Positions 33,430 through 49,664 of a stretch of 55,893 nucleotides of DNA are shown piece by piece; within the stretch, counting starts at the first letter, position 1, and every line of letters starts with the position of its first letter. Source of the stretch: a virus. The stretch spans positions 1-55,893 of IMG/VR virus record IMGVR_UViG_3300022562_000664; one strand, given 5' to 3'. The translations under genes and the position numbers were made by a program. The notes under the pieces are model-generated. The model had not been told where the DNA came from, did no database searches, and saw nothing but the letters and a program-made list of their open reading frames with translations.

Positions 33430-34004
33430 TAGATACCGGGAGAAAACTCTCAATAGGCACTCTATCATTACCCTAATTTGTACCGTATGAAAAATACTCC
33501 TAGTTACGGGTTACTGTATTGTGGCCCTTGCTGGGCTTCCCCCCGGTTTTCCTGCGAAAATTGAGGTTGTGCGCCGTAACTGAGGTTCTGTGTTCGGGTA
33601 CGCTAGGCCCGCCACTCACTCATTCAACACATGACATTTTTCCACCCAAGACCATTGTTCGCGGTTCGTTCTGTTTGATTTTCTGTGTGGATGGGTGTCC
33701 GTACCGCTTCTATAAATTTTGAAAAGTTGCACACTACGCCGCTGAATGGTAAAAAAGGAGAATAGGCGAGTGATAGCGTGGGTGGATGGGTTAATGTATG
33801 GATGCTATGAGTGTCCCTACCGCTTCAGTGCATCACGAAAGCACTGCTCATGTAGAAATGGGTGGATGGGAATTTGGAAAGCAGGAGCCTACGCCGCATG
33901 AGCGGGTGGATGGATGGAAGGATGGACGCGCGGGCGCGCGCCAGCGGCCCAGGGCCTCACAGCCCCAGGCTCGCCAGATCATTCGTACACTAACGGTCAG
34001 TCAG
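33430..34004. other. Non-coding region with imperfect direct repeats
   Basis: No convincing gene. It has more GTTAC/GTAAC units (33504, 33510, 33576), repeated TGGATGG-type runs (33780-33930), and a repeated segment GTGTCC(G/C)TACCGCTTC near 33691 and 33811. Forward frames crossing it lack an RBS and natural composition. The last part is GC-rich. Confidence 0.5.
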
Positions 34005-34068
34005 CCAACCAGGCAACCAGGCAACCAGGCAACCAGGCAACCAGGCAACCAGGCAACCAGGCAACCAG
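34005..34068 (+). repeat. Minisatellite: seven perfect GCAACCAG octamers plus one imperfect
   Basis: Seven perfect tandem copies of GCAACCAG (34013-34068) preceded by CCAACCAG. The unit is not a multiple of three, so the array is unlikely to be protein-coding. Phage genomes rarely keep such arrays. Confidence 0.95.
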
Positions 34069-34086
34069 CCACGCGCCCACAGACAG

Positions 34087-34175
<89 letters not shown>

Positions 34176-34186
34176 AGCAACCAGGC

Positions 34187-34333
34187 TCAGCGGGTCATTC
34201 GTTCACGAATAATCGCACGCTTCACACGGCGGCGGCGCATCACGCGCTCAAACTCGTCAGACAGCCACGCGCCCAAAGCCAAGCCAGTCATAAACGCAGC
34301 TAGCAGGACCAGCATCAGGATTAACTCGTTCAT
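34187..34333 (-). CDS. 48-residue membrane protein
   Basis: A reverse-strand gene with GGAG seven bases before the ATG at 34333. The product has an N-terminal membrane span (LILMLVLLAAFMTGLALGAW) followed by a strongly basic cytoplasmic tail (MRRRRVKRAIIRERMTR). The gene ends 13 bases from the GCAA array, which therefore lies in its 3' untranslated region. A weak promoter (TTTACT, 17 bases, TAGGAT) can be drawn upstream on the reverse strand. Confidence 0.65.
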   Translation of the reverse strand: MNELILMLVLLAAFMTGLALGAWLSDEFERVMRRRRVKRAIIRERMTR

Positions 34334-34424
34334 CGTTTTCTCCATTCTTAAGTCTATCTAAAATCCTACTCCAGCCACGCGGGGAAGTAAAGAGATTTTT
34401 TTATTTTTTTTTCGTTTCTCCCTC

Positions 34425-34453
34425 TTTACTTTTCCCTTCGGGCGCCCTATATA
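34425..34453 (+). promoter_or_regulatory. Sigma70-like promoter of the island gene
   Basis: TTTACT (34425-34430) and TATATA (34448-34453) are spaced by 17 bases. The predicted start near 34460 leaves a purine-rich leader (AGGAAAAGGAAAGGAAATAGGA) with several SD-like elements before the ATG at 34512. The T-rich tract upstream may serve as an UP-like element. Confidence 0.6.
34430..34443 (+). repeat. Left 14-bp direct repeat of the island
   Basis: TTTTCCCTTCGGGC, identical to 35023-35036. Including the six bases before each copy, 18 of 20 positions match. The repeats bound most of the TG/CA-void island, including the gene, as expected for a cassette inserted or exchanged by recombination. Confidence 0.85.
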
Positions 34454-34511
34454 TAAGAGGCGTAAGGGAATAGGCCCGACGCTAGACTTAGGAAAAGGAA
34501 AGGAAATAGGA

Positions 34512-34973
34512 ATGAGTTCCGTAGGATTTAAGGGCTTCGCGAAACCGTCGAAAGTCGAGAACCTCGACGCGGCCCTAGAAAATATTCCCGCCGACGAATA
34601 CGTATTTTATACGGGCGGGAATTACGGGCGGCGGCGCGCTTCCGGGCGCTCCGCTTCCCTCGCGACCGTAACCGAGGTCCGGAAGCCTATCCCGGTTCGC
34701 GAATACGCGAAACGGGCCGCGACTTCCGGGCCGGGCGGGACCGGTTTCCCGACTTCTATCTCGGTCGGCGGGTTAGGACTTCATTCCGGCGCTAAGCCCG
34801 CCGTTTATCTCTACCTCGTAAGGGACGCGGCGGGAAATTTCCGGGCGAAGAAAGATATTCCTAACCCGGACCGCGCTTTCTCGGAGACGCCTTTTAAGGC
34901 GGGAGACGTAGTAATCCCCGCGCCGAAGGCGACGGGCGCGGAGACTAAGAAAATCGCGGCCCCTAAGAAGTAG
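34512..34973 (+). CDS. Island protein: 153-residue protein of unknown function
   Basis: A 153-residue basic protein of unrecognised family. It lacks Cys, Trp and Gln, has Met only at the start and a single His: exactly the residues whose codons need TG or CA. Codon choice and codon junctions also avoid both dinucleotides. Segments that look folded include YVFYTGGNYGRRRASGRS, AVYLYLVRDAAGNFRAKK and FKAGDVVIPAPKA; the end is Lys/Ala/Pro-rich. There is no signal peptide or membrane span. It has its own promoter and terminator and lies on the strand opposite to both flanking small genes, so it is an autonomous moron-like unit. Nucleic acid binding is possible from the charge, but unproven. Confidence 0.85.
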   Translation: MSSVGFKGFAKPSKVENLDAALENIPADEYVFYTGGNYGRRRASGRSASLATVTEVRKPIPVREYAKRAATSGPGGTGFPTSISVGGLGLHSGAKPAVYLYLVRDAAGNFRAKKDIPNPDRAFSETPFKAGDVVIPAPKATGAETKKIAAPKK

Positions 34974-34996
34974 AGCTAAGACCTCTTTAGACCTAG

Positions 34997-35029
34997 GGCG
35001 CGGCCTTCGGGCCGCGCCTTTCTTTTCCC
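34997..35029 (+). terminator. Perfect intrinsic terminator with TTCG tetraloop
   Basis: GGCGCGGCC (34997-35005), loop TTCG, GGCCGCGCC (35010-35018), then TTTCTTTTCCC. A nine-base perfect stem with a stable tetraloop and a U-rich tail. The T-rich tail forms part of the right direct repeat. Confidence 0.93.
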
Positions 35030-35036
35030 TTCGGGC
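35023..35036 (+). repeat. Right 14-bp direct repeat of the island
   Basis: TTTTCCCTTCGGGC, identical to 34430-34443. The first TG after the island begins on the base directly following this copy (35037-35038). Confidence 0.85.
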
Positions 35037-35766: not shown

Positions 35767-36162
35767 GTGGTATCTCTCAAGAAAGTTCGCAGAACAGGCA
35801 GAGATGCCTCAACCAGCAATATAATTCGCAGGACAGAGCCCCCGACTGTTCAAGAGTCGGTTGTTCGCATTATCAATGAATGTGACCCGGTTGGCTTCCT
35901 GAGTGATATAGTCAATGGGAAGGCCATTGAATGTCACGTTGTTGGTGAAGATGGCCAAATCACAACGTTTTATGAGACACCTACCCTCAAGCAGCGTCTT
36001 CAGGCAGCTAGTTTCTTGGCTGAGAGATATTTGCCAAAGGTGGCGGTTGTTAAGCACGCGCATCTTCACAAAAGTGCCGATAAGCATACGCCCGGTGAGG
36101 AACGTTCTTTTGGTCAGATTGTGACGCATGCAGCTCAGAAATCATCCAATAGTAGCGAGTGA
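35767..36162 (+). CDS. terS: Terminase small subunit (probable)
   Basis: A 131-residue protein directly upstream of TerL and overlapping it by 35 bases. A basic N-terminus (VSLKKVRRTGRD) precedes a helical region (VQESVVRIINECDPVGFLSD) and a conserved-looking helix (TLKQRLQAASFLAERYLPKV), as in small terminase-like proteins of other siphoviruses. It recognises the packaging site and loads DNA onto TerL. I place the start at GTG 35767, after the predicted transcription start, with AAGG upstream. The family call is mainly positional. Confidence 0.7.
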   Translation: MVSLKKVRRTGRDASTSNIIRRTEPPTVQESVVRIINECDPVGFLSDIVNGKAIECHVVGEDGQITTFYETPTLKQRLQAASFLAERYLPKVAVVKHAHLHKSADKHTPGEERSFGQIVTHAAQKSSNSSE

Positions 36163-37669
36163 GCAAGAGGTAAAGGCACTTCAATACTGGACCCAAAATC
36201 CAATTGAAGCTGTCAAGGCCTGGTTCAACGTTACTCCAGAACCATATCAAGCAGACATCATCAATGCTCTCTTGAAGCCGGGGGCAGATAAGGTGTCACG
36301 TGTGGCTGTTAAGTCAAGTCACGGTGTGGGTAAGACGACCACAATGGCCTGGTGTGGCTGGGTATTCCTTATGACCAGGATGCTCAGTAAGACTGTGGCC
36401 ACGGCCCCGACTGCGCACCAATTAATGGATGTTCTTTGGCCTGAATTTGCTAAGTGGCATGCAAGGATGCCCAAGGAGATGCAGGCAATATGGGATGTGT
36501 CAGCAACCCATGTCAGGTGTAAGAAGTATCCATTATCCTGGTTTGCTGCGGCGCGGACCAGTAACAAGCCCGAAAACATGCAGGGCTTCCACGAAGATCA
36601 TATCTTGGTGTTGTGCGAGGAAGCTAGTGGTATTCCGCCAGAAATATTCGAGGTCATCGAAGGTATCTTGTCCAACGCAGAAGAGCATGAGCAAGAGGCT
36701 CTACTGTTACTTGCGGGAAACCCGACGCAGACGGGTGGAGAGTTCTACAATGCGTTCAATCGCAATAAAGACATCTACAACCGCTTCACAGTAACCGGGG
36801 ATGAAACAACTAAGCCAGACCGGGGTGCGGGCAAGTTTTACTTCTCCAAGCGGGTCAGCAACAAATACCGCACCAACATGGAGAAGAAATATGGGCTCGT
36901 ATCGTCAGTATACGATGTACGCGTGCGTGGCCTTTTCCCGACGATGGCCGACGATGTTGTCATCCCTCTGGAGTGGGCCGAGAAAGCACAGTTCAAGATG
37001 CTCCCTCACTTCGATAGGGTATCAGACCCGATTACCCTGGTTATGGACGTTGCCCGTTTTGGTGGGGACAAGACTACCTTGGCCGTGTTCAGGAAGGGTC
37101 ACTGCTTGGCTATGCACAAGTGGCCCAAGACTTCTGGCACTCAGTGCTGCGATATTATGCAAGAAGCATATCACCATGGCGCTTTCGGTGTAGGCTCAAT
37201 CCCGGTCATTCGCGTTCTGGTGGATGAGCCTGGTGTTGGTGGGCCGGTAATTGACATGATGAGGCGCCAGGAGATTCCTGCCATTGGTTATCATGGTGGC
37301 GTAACCATGAAGCGTGGCGAGGATCACGACGAAGATGTGCGCATGTTTTTCAACCGGCGATCTAGGGATTGGTGGAATTTGCGCCGTAAGATGGAATTGG
37401 GGTTGATTAAGATTCCTGAAGATGAAGATTTGGTTAATGAATTGGCATCAGTCAAATATGAATATGTAAATGAGAAGATCAAGGTGGAAACTAAGAAAGA
37501 CATGCGTGAGCGCCTAGGGGATGATGCAAGTCCTGACCTGGCAGATACAATTGTAATGGGCTCTGCTCCGTATGTTGGCACCACCAATATGGTGCCTTTA
37601 GAAACACTTGATCTTGAACAGGCGATCATATACGGTGAAGATCGCCCGACAGCTCACCAGGATTTCTGA
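36128..37669 (+). CDS. terL: Terminase large subunit
   Basis: A 513-residue packaging motor. Walker A is KSSHGVGKTT, Walker B with the catalytic acid lies in ILVLCEEAS (Cys where Asp is usual, then Glu-Glu), followed by LLAGNPTQTGG as the coupling motif. The C-terminal RNase H-like nuclease shows VMDVARFGGDKTTLAV, a later acidic VDEPGVGG and GDDASPDLADT. It translocates and cuts DNA at the portal. The ATG lies inside the preceding gene. Lack of other packaging clues leaves cos versus headful undecided. Confidence 0.95.
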   Translation: MQLRNHPIVASEQEVKALQYWTQNPIEAVKAWFNVTPEPYQADIINALLKPGADKVSRVAVKSSHGVGKTTTMAWCGWVFLMTRMLSKTVATAPTAHQLMDVLWPEFAKWHARMPKEMQAIWDVSATHVRCKKYPLSWFAAARTSNKPENMQGFHEDHILVLCEEASGIPPEIFEVIEGILSNAEEHEQEALLLLAGNPTQTGGEFYNAFNRNKDIYNRFTVTGDETTKPDRGAGKFYFSKRVSNKYRTNMEKKYGLVSSVYDVRVRGLFPTMADDVVIPLEWAEKAQFKMLPHFDRVSDPITLVMDVARFGGDKTTLAVFRKGHCLAMHKWPKTSGTQCCDIMQEAYHHGAFGVGSIPVIRVLVDEPGVGGPVIDMMRRQEIPAIGYHGGVTMKRGEDHDEDVRMFFNRRSRDWWNLRRKMELGLIKIPEDEDLVNELASVKYEYVNEKIKVETKKDMRERLGDDASPDLADTIVMGSAPYVGTTNMVPLETLDLEQAIIYGEDRPTAHQDF

Positions 37670-42409: not shown

Positions 42410-43134
42410 AAATCCTTGTTAGTTGCTGCGACAATGGCAGTGGATTATTCATGTGTGAAGATGGAGAGTGGACCCATCTTGTAGACACTCACGCTCAATC
42501 TGTTCTTCGCACCCCACTTGGAATCATGTTGATGACAGAAGGGTGGATTTTACTTTATGATGAAGAAAGGTTGAAGAAAAAAGAATTAAGTGTCATTACA
42601 AGAACAAAGTTTGCTTTGAGAGGGCACCATGGTTCCGTATGGGATGATCAGACAGGTCTTGTGGCTACAGTCTCTTCTGACGAAAACACTATTTATTGGA
42701 CATGCCCAATCTCAGGTGAAAAGAAGCGAACACTTGAAGTCAATCGCCCAGGTTCGCATACCAATGACATTGACATTGATGGAAGCGAAATCTATGTGTC
42801 AAGTTTCCATCGCGGGATTACACGAGTAGATAGGGAAACTGGTTCTAGACAAGAGCTTTGGGTTGGAGAAGAAAAAGCACATTCCGTTAAAAAAGTCAAT
42901 GGTGAAGTCTGGTGGTGCGAATCAGATCAGCGACGAGTGAAAAGAAATGGTAAAATTGTTTCTGAGTTTCCAGGCTTTCCAAGAGGTTTGGAATGGTACA
43001 ATGGTGATTTAATTGTTGGCATTTCTCGCCATAAATATCGCGAAGAAGGACATGCTGGATTCTATTACAATGATTCATTTTACTCTGTTCCTAATGGCGT
43101 CACCAATGTTTATGATTTGTTGGTTTTAGAATGA
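42406..43134 (+). CDS. Beta-propeller-like protein
   Basis: A 242-residue protein with repeated four-strand units (WTHLVDTHAQSVLRTP, GSVWDDQTGLVATVSSDENT, SHTNDIDIDGSEIYVSSFH, HSVKKVNGEVWWCESDQRR, RGLEWYNGDLIVGIS), compatible with a five- or six-bladed propeller of SMP-30/NHL type. Asp and His pairs such as HTNDIDIDG could bind metal. It is coupled to the radical SAM gene (ATGA), so the two probably work together on one substrate. The closest known group may be TIGR03032-like proteins; I am not certain. Confidence 0.6.
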   Translation: MKILVSCCDNGSGLFMCEDGEWTHLVDTHAQSVLRTPLGIMLMTEGWILLYDEERLKKKELSVITRTKFALRGHHGSVWDDQTGLVATVSSDENTIYWTCPISGEKKRTLEVNRPGSHTNDIDIDGSEIYVSSFHRGITRVDRETGSRQELWVGEEKAHSVKKVNGEVWWCESDQRRVKRNGKIVSEFPGFPRGLEWYNGDLIVGISRHKYREEGHAGFYYNDSFYSVPNGVTNVYDLLVLE

Positions 43135-43808
43135 AGTATCCGAGACTCATCCAAGAAATCCACCAGATTGAAGTCACCACTAGGTGTAATCTGCGTTGTA
43201 GATATTGTCCCCACCCAAAGATGCAGCGGCCAAAAGAGGATATGGAATTCAAAACATTCCTCAGAGCTATGCACTGGGTTGAATATTTCTATCAGCGCGG
43301 ACTACAAAGTGAACTTTCATTTACAGGGATTGGTGAAAGCACAATGCATCCCCAGTTTAAGGAGATGTTGCTTTTCGCCAGAGACCGTTGCCCGAATATG
43401 CCAATTTTGTTCAGCACCAATGGATTGCCAACCTTTGACGAGGACTTAGCAAAGCTGTGTTCAAAGATTGGCATTCAGGTGATGGTCTCACTTCATCGCC
43501 CAGAGATGGCAGGTAAGTGCATTGAGCTTTGCAAAAAGTATGGCATATTACGATATGTCAACAATGCTTTTGCCACTAGTGCTTTCAATTGGGCAGGGCA
43601 AGTAGAAGGTTGGTTTAACTCTGCTCCATCAACTCCATGTGCTTATTTAGCTCGTGGATGGGGAGTTGTTCTTCAAGATGGTCAAATTACTACTTGCTGT
43701 CTTGATTCTGAAAATTACGGGGTAGTGGGCACAGTTTGGGATGAGCCCGGTTCACTGTCAATTGCTCCGTATAAGTTATGCGAAAATTGTCACGAACAAG
43801 TTCCATAG
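43131..43808 (+). CDS. Radical SAM enzyme with SPASM-like end
   Basis: A 225-residue enzyme. The iron-sulphur motif is C19-x3-C23-x2-C26 (CNLRCRYC), followed by a SAM-binding GIGEST and the barrel strand PILFSTNG. The C-terminal part has more Cys (TPCAYLARGWG, TTCCLDSEN, CENCHEQV), a SPASM/Twitch-like cluster used by enzymes that modify peptides or sugars. It is shorter than usual (about 300-400). Between a propeller-like protein and capsid genes, it may modify a virion protein or glycan. Coupled upstream; the next gene starts within its end. Confidence 0.8.
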   Translation: MKYPRLIQEIHQIEVTTRCNLRCRYCPHPKMQRPKEDMEFKTFLRAMHWVEYFYQRGLQSELSFTGIGESTMHPQFKEMLLFARDRCPNMPILFSTNGLPTFDEDLAKLCSKIGIQVMVSLHRPEMAGKCIELCKKYGILRYVNNAFATSAFNWAGQVEGWFNSAPSTPCAYLARGWGVVLQDGQITTCCLDSENYGVVGTVWDEPGSLSIAPYKLCENCHEQVP

Positions 43809-46705: not shown

Positions 46706-46741
46706 GGGGGATGGTTGCTCGGTGCCCCGGTGCCATCCCCC
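46706..46741 (+). terminator. Second hairpin after the capsid gene
   Basis: GGGGGATGG (46706-46714) pairs perfectly with CCATCCCCC (46733-46741). Again no T run. Two stable hairpins in tandem suggest attenuation between capsid and the glycosyltransferase. Confidence 0.6.
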
Positions 46742-46766
46742 GCACCACACAGCAAAGGGGCATATC

Positions 46767-49664
46767 ATGGAAGTTGTTATCTTGGCGCAGGGCCTACCTT
46801 TTGGGCCCACCACCATTGAGCACCGTTCTCTTGGTGGATCAGAAACTGCTGCTTTAATGATGGCGCGTGAACTTCGGAAGCGCGGCCATCTTGTAAGCAT
46901 TTTCTGTAATCTCCCTCCAGTTGGATACCCTGACCATATTGAAAATGGTGCCCAAGATGATTTGGGCGTTCGTTGGGTATCTGGAGATCAATACCAAGGG
47001 TTCATCTCTAATACAGAAGTTGATCTGCTAGTTGTTAGCAGGAACCCTGATTTATTTCAGTGTGTCCATCAAGCTAAGAAAGCAGTTTTGTGGTGCCATG
47101 ATTTAGCAACCTATCAAGGTTTGCTACCCCGGCTTATGCAATCTGCTTGGAATTTTGATGAGATTTGGTGCGTATCTGAATATCACCGCCAACAAATTCA
47201 TAAGGTCACTGGCTACCCTCTTAAGAACATTAGGGCAACAAGAAATGGAATTGTAAAGTTTGATTCCATCCTTCAGCTTCCTAGAGAGGAAAAGACACTA
47301 TTATATTCAGCACGCCCTGAGCGTGGATTAGAAAATTTAGTCAAAGAAGGCGGTATTATGGAGCGCCTTCCAGAATATCATCTTTATGTTACCATGTACG
47401 AAAACTATCCAGACCACATGATGGACTATTATCGTTATTTGTGGTCAAGGTGTGAAGCTCTTGACAATGTAACGCTTCTTGGACCTAAGACGCAACTTGA
47501 ATTGCGCCAACTTATGCGTAAATGTTGGGCTTATTGCTATCCCACAGCTTTTGAGGAAGTCTCTTGTATCATTGCGCGAGAGTGTATTGAACAGAAACTT
47601 CCTTTTATTGGAACAACTATCGGTGCACTTCCAGAAACATTAAATGGCTGTGGGCACCTATTTGAGTGCACCAAAGAAGAAGTGGGAACAGAAAAGTTTT
47701 GTGAAGAATTTGCTGAATTTGTTAAAGGGGCCGGGCGTGAAATTATGTCAATTGAAGAAGCCTGTAGCCTAAGAAATGATTTATATTGGGATGATGTAGC
47801 AGAACAATGGGAAGAATGGTCAGTTCCTGAAAAGCCTACTGACTATTCTGCTATTCACTCTTTGATTCAAGATAGTGATATCATAGCTGCAAAAGCAGTC
47901 CTAGATACTATTCCAGAAGATAAGCGCACCCCTGGTATCAAATGGCTTGAAAATGAACTCAAGACAAAATATGAGTTTGTTTTTGGGAACAAGAAAATGG
48001 AGGATCATTACAAAGATATTTACGACTTTGAAGAATCAAAGCAAGTACCTGAGCGGCAATCAATGAAAACACTCAGAGGGCATGCCAGATATAACTGTAT
48101 TGCCCAACTTGCACAGAATGTTCTTCCTGGAAGCACAGTCATCGAATATGGTTGTGCTGAAGGACCAATCATTCTTCAGCTAGCACGAGACTTCCCTGAT
48201 CGCCATTTTATTGGTATTGACTTTGTAGAGGCAAATATTGATCTCTGCAAAAAGTACGCAAAAGAACATGACATCAATAATGTTAGCTTCTATACAGGAA
48301 GTGTCGATGATTGGCCAGCCGAAGTGGAAGAGGTTGATGCAGCAATCATCGCTGAAGTTTTAGAACACACAATTAAGCCATGGGAGATCATCAGTAAGCT
48401 AGAGAGCCACGTCAAAATTGGTGGCAGGATGATTCTAACCGTCCCGCAAGGCCCATGGGAGTGGCAAGGCTTGAAGGGCCCTCAATGGCCCTGGAGGGCT
48501 CATATTTGGCACATCAATAAATGGATGCTGCGCAAGATGTTCGAGAACAAAGAAGAATGCATCTTGAATGCGCTCCAAGAAGGATACCACTACGATGGCC
48601 GAGTTTGTGGTCATTTGGTGATGGGTTATAAGGCAGATGGTGAGCCAGCAGTAGAAATTGATCCAATAGAAAAGGCCCGGTTGTCTAGGTATCGTCAGAG
48701 TATGGCAGCCTGCATGATTGCCATGAATGATGATGCAACTATTATCCGTGCGCTGGATTCAATTGGCAACTTTATTGAGCAATTGCAAATTGCTCTAGGT
48801 CCGTCCACTGACCACACCAGGGAAAGAATTGAAGAGTGGGCAAGCGAACATCCATGGGTAGAAACTAGAATCATTGATGTTCCTAAAATTGAAGCCAAAA
48901 AGTTTGGCTTTGATGATGCCAGAAATGAATCCATCAAAAATATTGAGTCAGACTGGATTCTCTGGATAGATTGTGATGAATATTTATCTGGGGACAAGAT
49001 TAGAGTTTTCACAAGGAACCACTGCTTTGATAGCTTGGCTATTCAGCAGCATCACTTTACTTGTGAGCCTGCTGGTGCTCCAGCCCAAATTGATAAGCCT
49101 GCCCGGTTGTTCCGAAACCGCATAGGTTTTGAATTCTTTGGCAAGGTCCATGAACATGCAGAGCTAGGCTTCAATGGTGGGCCGGGGTTTGTCCTACTTG
49201 TTCCTGGCGTTGATATTGGCCACACTGGTTATGTCAATGATGCTACGCGGATGAGTAGATTTGGTCGCAATTTTCCATTGCTTGAATGGGACCAAGAAGT
49301 TTATCCTGAGCGCAAACTTGGTAGGTTCCTATGGCTTAGGGACATCATCCATCGAATGCGACTTATTAATCAGCAAGGCAATGTAAATGAAGCTAGACGC
49401 CTAGCTGAAGAGGCTATAAACTTCTTCAAAGAATTTGGCGAATCCTTTGAAGCAATTGGTGGTGGAAGTAATGCCACCCTGGCCTATGTTTCTGAGGCCA
49501 TGCAATTTTTGGGCAGAGGTTGGCCCATGATTGTTGCTGTCCAACTAGAGGAACAAACAGCACAATATCAAGGGGTATTTGAGTCAGAGGAAGATGCTTT
49601 CAAGATTGCGAAGCGGGCACTGAAAGAGCAAATTGAAAAGCGCAAATCAGGATATTGGCAATGA
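46767..49664 (+). CDS. Three-domain glycosyltransferase-methyltransferase-glycosyltransferase
   Basis: A 965-residue protein. Residues 1-330 resemble a GT-B (GT4-like) enzyme: SLGGSETAALMMARELRKRG, WCVSEYHRQQ, LLYSARPERGLENL and CYPTAFEEVSCIIARECIE. Residues 440-600 form a class I SAM methyltransferase: VIEYGCAEGPIILQLA, FIGIDFVEANI and EVLEHTIKPWE. Residues 645-880 resemble GT2: ACMIAMNDDATIIRALDSI, DDARNESIKNIESDW and ILWIDCDEYL, with the DxD metal site. ATG 46767 is chosen for its AAAGGGG. Between capsid and neck genes, it most likely builds a methylated glycan on the virion, though acting on host surface sugars is possible. Confidence 0.88.
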   Translation: MEVVILAQGLPFGPTTIEHRSLGGSETAALMMARELRKRGHLVSIFCNLPPVGYPDHIENGAQDDLGVRWVSGDQYQGFISNTEVDLLVVSRNPDLFQCVHQAKKAVLWCHDLATYQGLLPRLMQSAWNFDEIWCVSEYHRQQIHKVTGYPLKNIRATRNGIVKFDSILQLPREEKTLLYSARPERGLENLVKEGGIMERLPEYHLYVTMYENYPDHMMDYYRYLWSRCEALDNVTLLGPKTQLELRQLMRKCWAYCYPTAFEEVSCIIARECIEQKLPFIGTTIGALPETLNGCGHLFECTKEEVGTEKFCEEFAEFVKGAGREIMSIEEACSLRNDLYWDDVAEQWEEWSVPEKPTDYSAIHSLIQDSDIIAAKAVLDTIPEDKRTPGIKWLENELKTKYEFVFGNKKMEDHYKDIYDFEESKQVPERQSMKTLRGHARYNCIAQLAQNVLPGSTVIEYGCAEGPIILQLARDFPDRHFIGIDFVEANIDLCKKYAKEHDINNVSFYTGSVDDWPAEVEEVDAAIIAEVLEHTIKPWEIISKLESHVKIGGRMILTVPQGPWEWQGLKGPQWPWRAHIWHINKWMLRKMFENKEECILNALQEGYHYDGRVCGHLVMGYKADGEPAVEIDPIEKARLSRYRQSMAACMIAMNDDATIIRALDSIGNFIEQLQIALGPSTDHTRERIEEWASEHPWVETRIIDVPKIEAKKFGFDDARNESIKNIESDWILWIDCDEYLSGDKIRVFTRNHCFDSLAIQQHHFTCEPAGAPAQIDKPARLFRNRIGFEFFGKVHEHAELGFNGGPGFVLLVPGVDIGHTGYVNDATRMSRFGRNFPLLEWDQEVYPERKLGRFLWLRDIIHRMRLINQQGNVNEARRLAEEAINFFKEFGESFEAIGGGSNATLAYVSEAMQFLGRGWPMIVAVQLEEQTAQYQGVFESEEDAFKIAKRALKEQIEKRKSGYWQ

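Follow-up and report, generated by a model that had tools for sequence, protein, structure and literature searches.

Depletion of TG and CA in terminase-proximal phage islands

Why would a phage keep one of its transcription units nearly free of TG and CA? The window considered here, i.e. the whole stretch of DNA that was analyzed, is an entire virus contig from IMG/VR, 55,893 bp long, of a tailed phage with genes for a DnaE-type polymerase, helicase, primase, ThyX, terminase, portal, protease, major head and tail proteins. Segment 34378-35036 (659 bp) was originally predicted to contain a single TG, in a start codon, and a single CA at 34782. Our recount gives exactly this result, with the TG located at 34513 inside the ATG at 34512. 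The earlier expectation of about 80 TG/CA is also sound, since the base composition of the island itself predicts 42 TG and 39 CA (sum 81), and 659-bp windows over the whole record contain 98 on average (sd 12.5). Sliding-window dinucleotide counts, which had been suggested as a check, place the minimum of the record precisely at this island. Its TG/CA-free gaps measure 269, 255 and 137 bp, versus 40 bp at most in the rest of the phage. The remaining dinucleotides are all present, with CG (rho 1.58) and TA (rho 1.34) increased, and no further tri- or tetranucleotide ban was found in the island. Random synonymous recoding of the island gene using the codon usage of the phage (300 trials) resulted in about 54 TG/CA and never fewer than 40, against 2 observed. 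The loss is thus not an amino-acid effect.

The island gene and its signals

The features of the island are listed in Table 1. Here and in the related phages, promoters, start codons and the timing of expression are predictions made from sequence. A consensus sigma-70 site was searched for at the island and not found. The putative -10 region contains an 11-mer, CGCCCTATATA, that is common to the window and to the island of a related record, L149. The inverted repeat at the left end is related to a palindrome in L149, TTTACTTCTAGAAGTAAA. The 15-mer CTTTTCCCTTCGGGC, a repeat in the island, was rejected as a lead since it matched 37 unrelated contigs, all without islands. The terminator matched a Microviridae record, but the terminator there is of a generic kind, and the TG/CA content of that genome is normal.

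Table 1. Coordinates of the TG/CA-purged island, its gene and signals, and the terminase gene
Feature	Position	Strand	Remark
TG/CA-purged island	34378..35036	.	1 TG + 1 CA in 659 bp
Inverted repeat GGGGAAGTAAAGAG ... CTCTTTACTTTTCCC, island left end	34381..34435	+	from sequence
Putative promoter -10 region (CGCCCTATATATAAG)	34443..34458	+	predicted promoter
Purine-rich ribosome-binding region (AGGAAAAGGAAAGGAAATAGGA) directly 5' of start codon	34491..34511	+	from sequence
Gene, 153-aa protein	34512..34973	+	its ATG holds the sole TG of the island
His91 codon, only CA of the island	34782..34784	+	in conserved motif GLxLHxxxKPAVY
Intrinsic terminator	34995..35028	+	island stops about 16-18 bp beyond the stem
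Large terminase subunit	36128..37669	+	anchor for the syntenic island location

The 153-aa protein family has no match in Pfam, PHROGs, NCBIfam, the defence-system models of PADLOC, phages or plasmids. Single-protein searches with the island protein against phages, plasmids, IMG/VR and GTDB contigs were also negative, and its homologs were reached only via relatives of the polymerase and terminase. Its structure model was poor when computed without an alignment (pLDDT 42) and fair when four homologs were included (pLDDT 78.6), the latter model matching no known fold. Neither similarity to a known inhibitor family nor a neighboring aca regulator was found for this protein, and no HTH gene was seen in the unit.

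Purged islands in the closest relatives

The relatives, reached via a few genes, are a non-random sample. Record IMGVR_UViG_3300020201_000027 (G002) is syntenic with the window phage along the genome (polymerase 60%, terminase 56%) and encodes a homolog of the island protein (E 3e-19). Adjoining this homolog is an island of about 1096 bp without any TG/CA, with three tandem ORFs starting with ATT, ATC and ATT. Each is preceded by AAGATAGGAGGCTACT, one of them with a one-base variant upstream, and the starts stand behind three near-identical AAGATAGGAGGCTACTAT leaders. The start codons themselves, as predicted, would thereby have been purged of TG. On the side facing the homolog, the TG/CA density climbs slowly. 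ORF2 of this island (L137:9260-9637, minus strand) gave a sub-threshold match with Mrr_cat (E 0.07), probably by chance.

In IMGVR_UViG_3300037264_007619 (L149), no TG or CA occurs between the contig end and position 1182, i.e. over at least 1182 bp. Its homolog, which is 46% identical over 139 aa and has ATT as start codon after GGAG, is wholly purged. The homolog in IMGVR_UViG_3300048997_000104 (L145) has normal TG/CA, and no island is present in the sequence examined. The four homologous genes contain 61 (L145, 67 expected), 33 (G002, 56 expected), 2 (window) and 0 (L149) TG/CA. Whether homologs share the deficit, a check also suggested earlier, is therefore answered differently by each relative: L149 is fully purged, G002 is half-depleted beside a purged operon, and L145 is normal. 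Homologs with normal content, which had been named beforehand as a refuting outcome, show that the ban is no property of the gene family, and the independent purged copies that it is real.

The purge is visible in conserved residues. YWTG of the family is replaced by FYTG or FFTG in purged copies, and the conserved LH, retained in the island protein of the window with the one CA of the island, is LA in L149, where the His91 position is substituted (GLALAGLAKPAVY). Codons for Cys, Trp, Gln and internal Met are missing from every purged ORF, and His91 is the only His of the 153-aa protein, just as had been noted. The G002 and L149 islands, found after the segmentation described below, are longer than that of the window. 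In all three the GC content is 53-57% and the CG rho 1.4-1.6. Outward from the edges of the islands in the window and in L149, TG/CA density is normal again within about 60 bp, and the right edges of these two lie within about 20 bp beyond terminators.

Location upstream of the terminase gene

The islands of the window, G002 and L149, which are separate records, occupy the same locus. In seven phages with longer sequences (window phage, G002, VA-RY-3, PVA7, G005, G006, treated as circular, and G007), the lowest or second-lowest 150-bp TG/CA window is located 0.75-2.5 kb 5' of the terminase start. The short contig L149 shows the same minimum, which is nearly forced there. This terminase-proximal minimum is absent in L145/148, Xp15 and JBD30.

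Shorter blocks in more distant phages

Searching with the polymerase brought up Vibrio phage VA-RY-3 and Cronobacter phage Ss1, both with TG/CA-free stretches of 100-170 bp. In their DNA ligase genes a TG/CA-free block starts at the same aligned position, and likewise in Vibrio phage PVA7. When 136 records (1.88 Mb of phage DNA) were segmented into two states, with a threshold of our own choice, 15 blocks resulted, all in the DnaE-type polymerase group and the window island being the longest. Some of the TG/CA-free blocks sit within ligase genes or, in L127, the polymerase gene. This segmentation gave no block in shuffles of 9-mer blocks, nor in any of 37 unrelated contigs.

TG/CA absence has been maintained at two blocks through the divergence of VA-RY-3 and PVA7, as judged by a rough test. 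In the ligase block 44 of 141 aligned sites differ, and the lower copy has 2 TG/CA versus 12 [7-17] under a neutral simulation that ignores coding constraint, the VA-RY-3 segment compared extending beyond the block. For an orphan gene differing at 24 of 195 sites, the lower copy retains 4 TG/CA, where the same simulation gives 10.5 [6-15]. The nucleotide difference at these two blocks is thus 12-31%, and a polymerase segment used as control behaved normally.

A+T-rich elements like AAGTTACTAATATATATA are found at L051:3752, L133:39933, L141:1252 and L144:7572, within or beside terminase-proximal blocks. Several have G-rich direct repeats nearby, and they are candidate replication origins. In the PVA7 record (L133, PQ582223) many genes, among them those for polymerase, ligase and portal, are split, probably through sequencing frameshifts.

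Proposed selection against an agent reading TG:CA

Our preferred explanation, which we put forward tentatively as one that may well prove wrong, is strong and continuing local selection against a TG:CA-reading agent, acting on a unit of small proteins near the terminase gene with perhaps an early anti-defence role. The varied, non-directional and function-conserving changes, together with open frames, point to selection rather than mutation bias. Strand symmetry and the reach of the purge beyond the likely transcript favor double-stranded DNA as the target that is read. A symmetric ban caused by double-strand recognition, as initially proposed, is hence the best-supported reading, with an RNA-level agent still standing as a rival.

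The island would be a small, apparently self-contained transcription unit in a variable spot about 1-2.3 kb 5' of the terminase gene, on which an enzyme or effector reading TG (or CA) in double-stranded DNA could act. Any TG/CA inside the unit would be a liability, and those elsewhere in the genome would be tolerated. The small orphan proteins, probably early, may provide a counter-defence needed before the remaining phage is protected, and the reader could be a host defence with a TG-type, PAM-like dinucleotide recognition. If the product of the unit neutralizes the reader, the unit itself must be invisible to this reader, and no other part of the genome would then be at risk. Erasure would work as a ratchet, since a lost dinucleotide means a target that is permanently gone, and this ratchet might reach start codons (ATG to ATT/ATC) and conserved Trp and His. 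A more specific proposal, which we regard as doubtful, is that of a 'TG-silent' operon at a fixed pre-terminase site, with AUU/AUC initiation, encoding inhibitors of an undescribed double-strand TG:CA-reading defence that attacks it. An anti-defence unit leaves the purged ligase, the L127 polymerase and the possibly origin-like intergenic blocks unexplained, and the blocks internal to ligase and polymerase genes are explained by none of the versions proposed here. The edge polarity, the PAM content of a known anti-CRISPR operon and the small PAM depletion of targeted phages, all described below, also count against the preferred explanation, as does a protein of no recognizable family or fold.

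The reader could instead be part of the phage's own machinery (primase start sites, a nickase or recombinase, DNA modification), the pre-terminase locus being an origin or a DNA-entry/packaging region that is kept untouched, with nearby genes caught. The constant position near the terminase gene and the presence of every block in phages with a DnaE-type polymerase would agree with this, as would the promoter-like intergenic DNA often covered by blocks and the A+T-rich elements and origin-like G-rich direct repeats in blocks of Ss1-like phages. However, none of the three islands (window, G002 and L149) yielded the A+T-rich element, protein-coding islands of more than 1 kb and the ligase and polymerase blocks far exceed an origin, and the related L145 has no block in the sequence examined, and we judge this origin of the purge unlikely. 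Among defence systems, one candidate reader is the type V-C CRISPR effector Cas12c: both Cas12c1 and OspCas12c recognize TG as PAM, the latter leaving DNA uncut in vitro (PMC9522604). OspCas12c/Cas12c2 bind their target and silence its transcription rather than cleaving it, so that an anti-CRISPR gene would have to be PAM-free from promoter to terminator. TG is the exact PAM, silencing without cleavage has been reported, the purge runs from promoter to terminator, and TG is missing on both strands throughout the unit, save for the one TG and the one CA of the window island. TA is undepleted in the island, which argues against a Cas12d-like TA/TG PAM. The edges, however, do not reveal a PAM direction (outward at 18 of 32), shorter blocks occur in Vibrio and Cronobacter phages, and ligase and polymerase genes are purged internally. 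The AcrIF1 operon of JBD30, a real anti-CRISPR, is not PAM-free, with 73 CC/GG PAMs against 83 expected. A Cas12c reader appears very unlikely to us.

The ban could also act on RNA, an endoribonuclease cutting UG and CA destroying early mRNA and the mRNA of the unit, e.g. that of its inhibitor, being free of such sites. An RNase specific for both UG and CA is not known to us. The right edges close to terminators and a leader purged like the coding part are in line with this scenario, to which we give the same very low probability as to Cas12c, since the purge reaches 5' of the likely promoter and past the terminators, is symmetric on both strands, and in certain blocks is intergenic. Local hypermutation or gene conversion, by a RIP-like CpA to TpA change or by patches from a TG/CA-free donor, is quite unlikely. 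Fungal RIP prefers CpA (PMC2621366). It shares with the islands the loss of CpA/TpG, the gain of TpA and a patchy distribution; the sharp edges and the variable, poorly aligning segments would also fit. RIP, however, lowers GC and breaks genes, whereas the islands keep their reading frames and protein similarity, raise CG along with TA without lowering GC, and show non-directional changes, among them transversions (ATG to ATT/ATC) and replacements of several bases. None of directional C to T change in CpA, lowered GC or broken frames was found in the three islands, and the 136 records include no TG/CA-free donor genome. The mutational process envisaged in the original prediction is likewise disfavored, since it does not account for the replacement of Trp by Tyr/Phe, of His by Ser/Ala and of ATG by ATT/ATC in frames that stay intact. 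The other alternative of that prediction, import from a replicon of extreme composition, is disfavored by the absence maintained through divergence and by the ligase and polymerase blocks. Finally, an assembly, editing or synthetic-DNA artefact has a negligible probability. The window record is by itself not decisive and has a GCAA tandem repeat near the left edge of the island, but the independent records G002 and L149 agree and the deposited isolates Ss1, VA-RY-3 and PVA7 carry homologous blocks, so that this early suspicion is refuted in practice.

Comparison with known systems

In the first-step-transfer DNA of T5 and with ocr of T7, DNA that enters early and carries anti-restriction genes is devoid of the sites read by the defence. 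The likeness to the islands is in the sites missing from anti-restriction DNA, early entry of the islands being an analogy. Such restriction-site avoidance concerns multi-base sites, a handful per region, whereas in the islands dozens to more than 100 sites of a dinucleotide are erased. Phages of P. aeruginosa targeted by type I-F CRISPR are also under selection against a defence-read dinucleotide, but the genome-wide depletion of their 5'-CC PAM is tiny (8.27 versus 8.74%; PMC12174588). This is a shift of half a percentage point, in contrast to the total and local loss in the islands, start codons included.

The statement that no system with this property has been described holds within the open-access literature searched, in which we also found no phage precedent for a dinucleotide fully lost despite the cost in start codons and conserved residues. 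The purge may thus flag, from sequence alone, places where an unknown DNA-reading agent acts, and any virome could be screened for such loci in a simple way. It further singles out candidates for counter-defence genes, along with operons that apparently use AUU/AUC initiation in nature.

Left flank and other genes of the window phage

Immediately left of the island, the plus strand has no TG for 453 bp (33924-34376); this region is CA-rich and partly a tandem repeat. In its non-repeat part (34187-34376) TG is absent versus 7.8 expected (about 5e-5 by shuffling). The tandem arrays (34002-34186) consist of CAGGCAAC with a period of 8, followed by 22 perfect copies of GCAA. An unlisted 48-aa ORF resembling a membrane protein (MNELILMLVLLAAFM...), with a ribosome-binding site, is encoded at 34190-34334 on the minus strand. 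It is divergent to the island gene, and its coding strand is without CA. For base hypermodification, a weak QueE-like radical SAM match was the only hit, DpdA, QueC and QueD not being seen among the scanned genes, and this idea was rejected. A radical SAM protein is encoded within the head genes (43131-43805). Directly after the major head gene, positions 46722-49661 encode a 980-aa glycosyltransferase-methyltransferase-glycosyltransferase fusion, which is conserved in G002 (44%).
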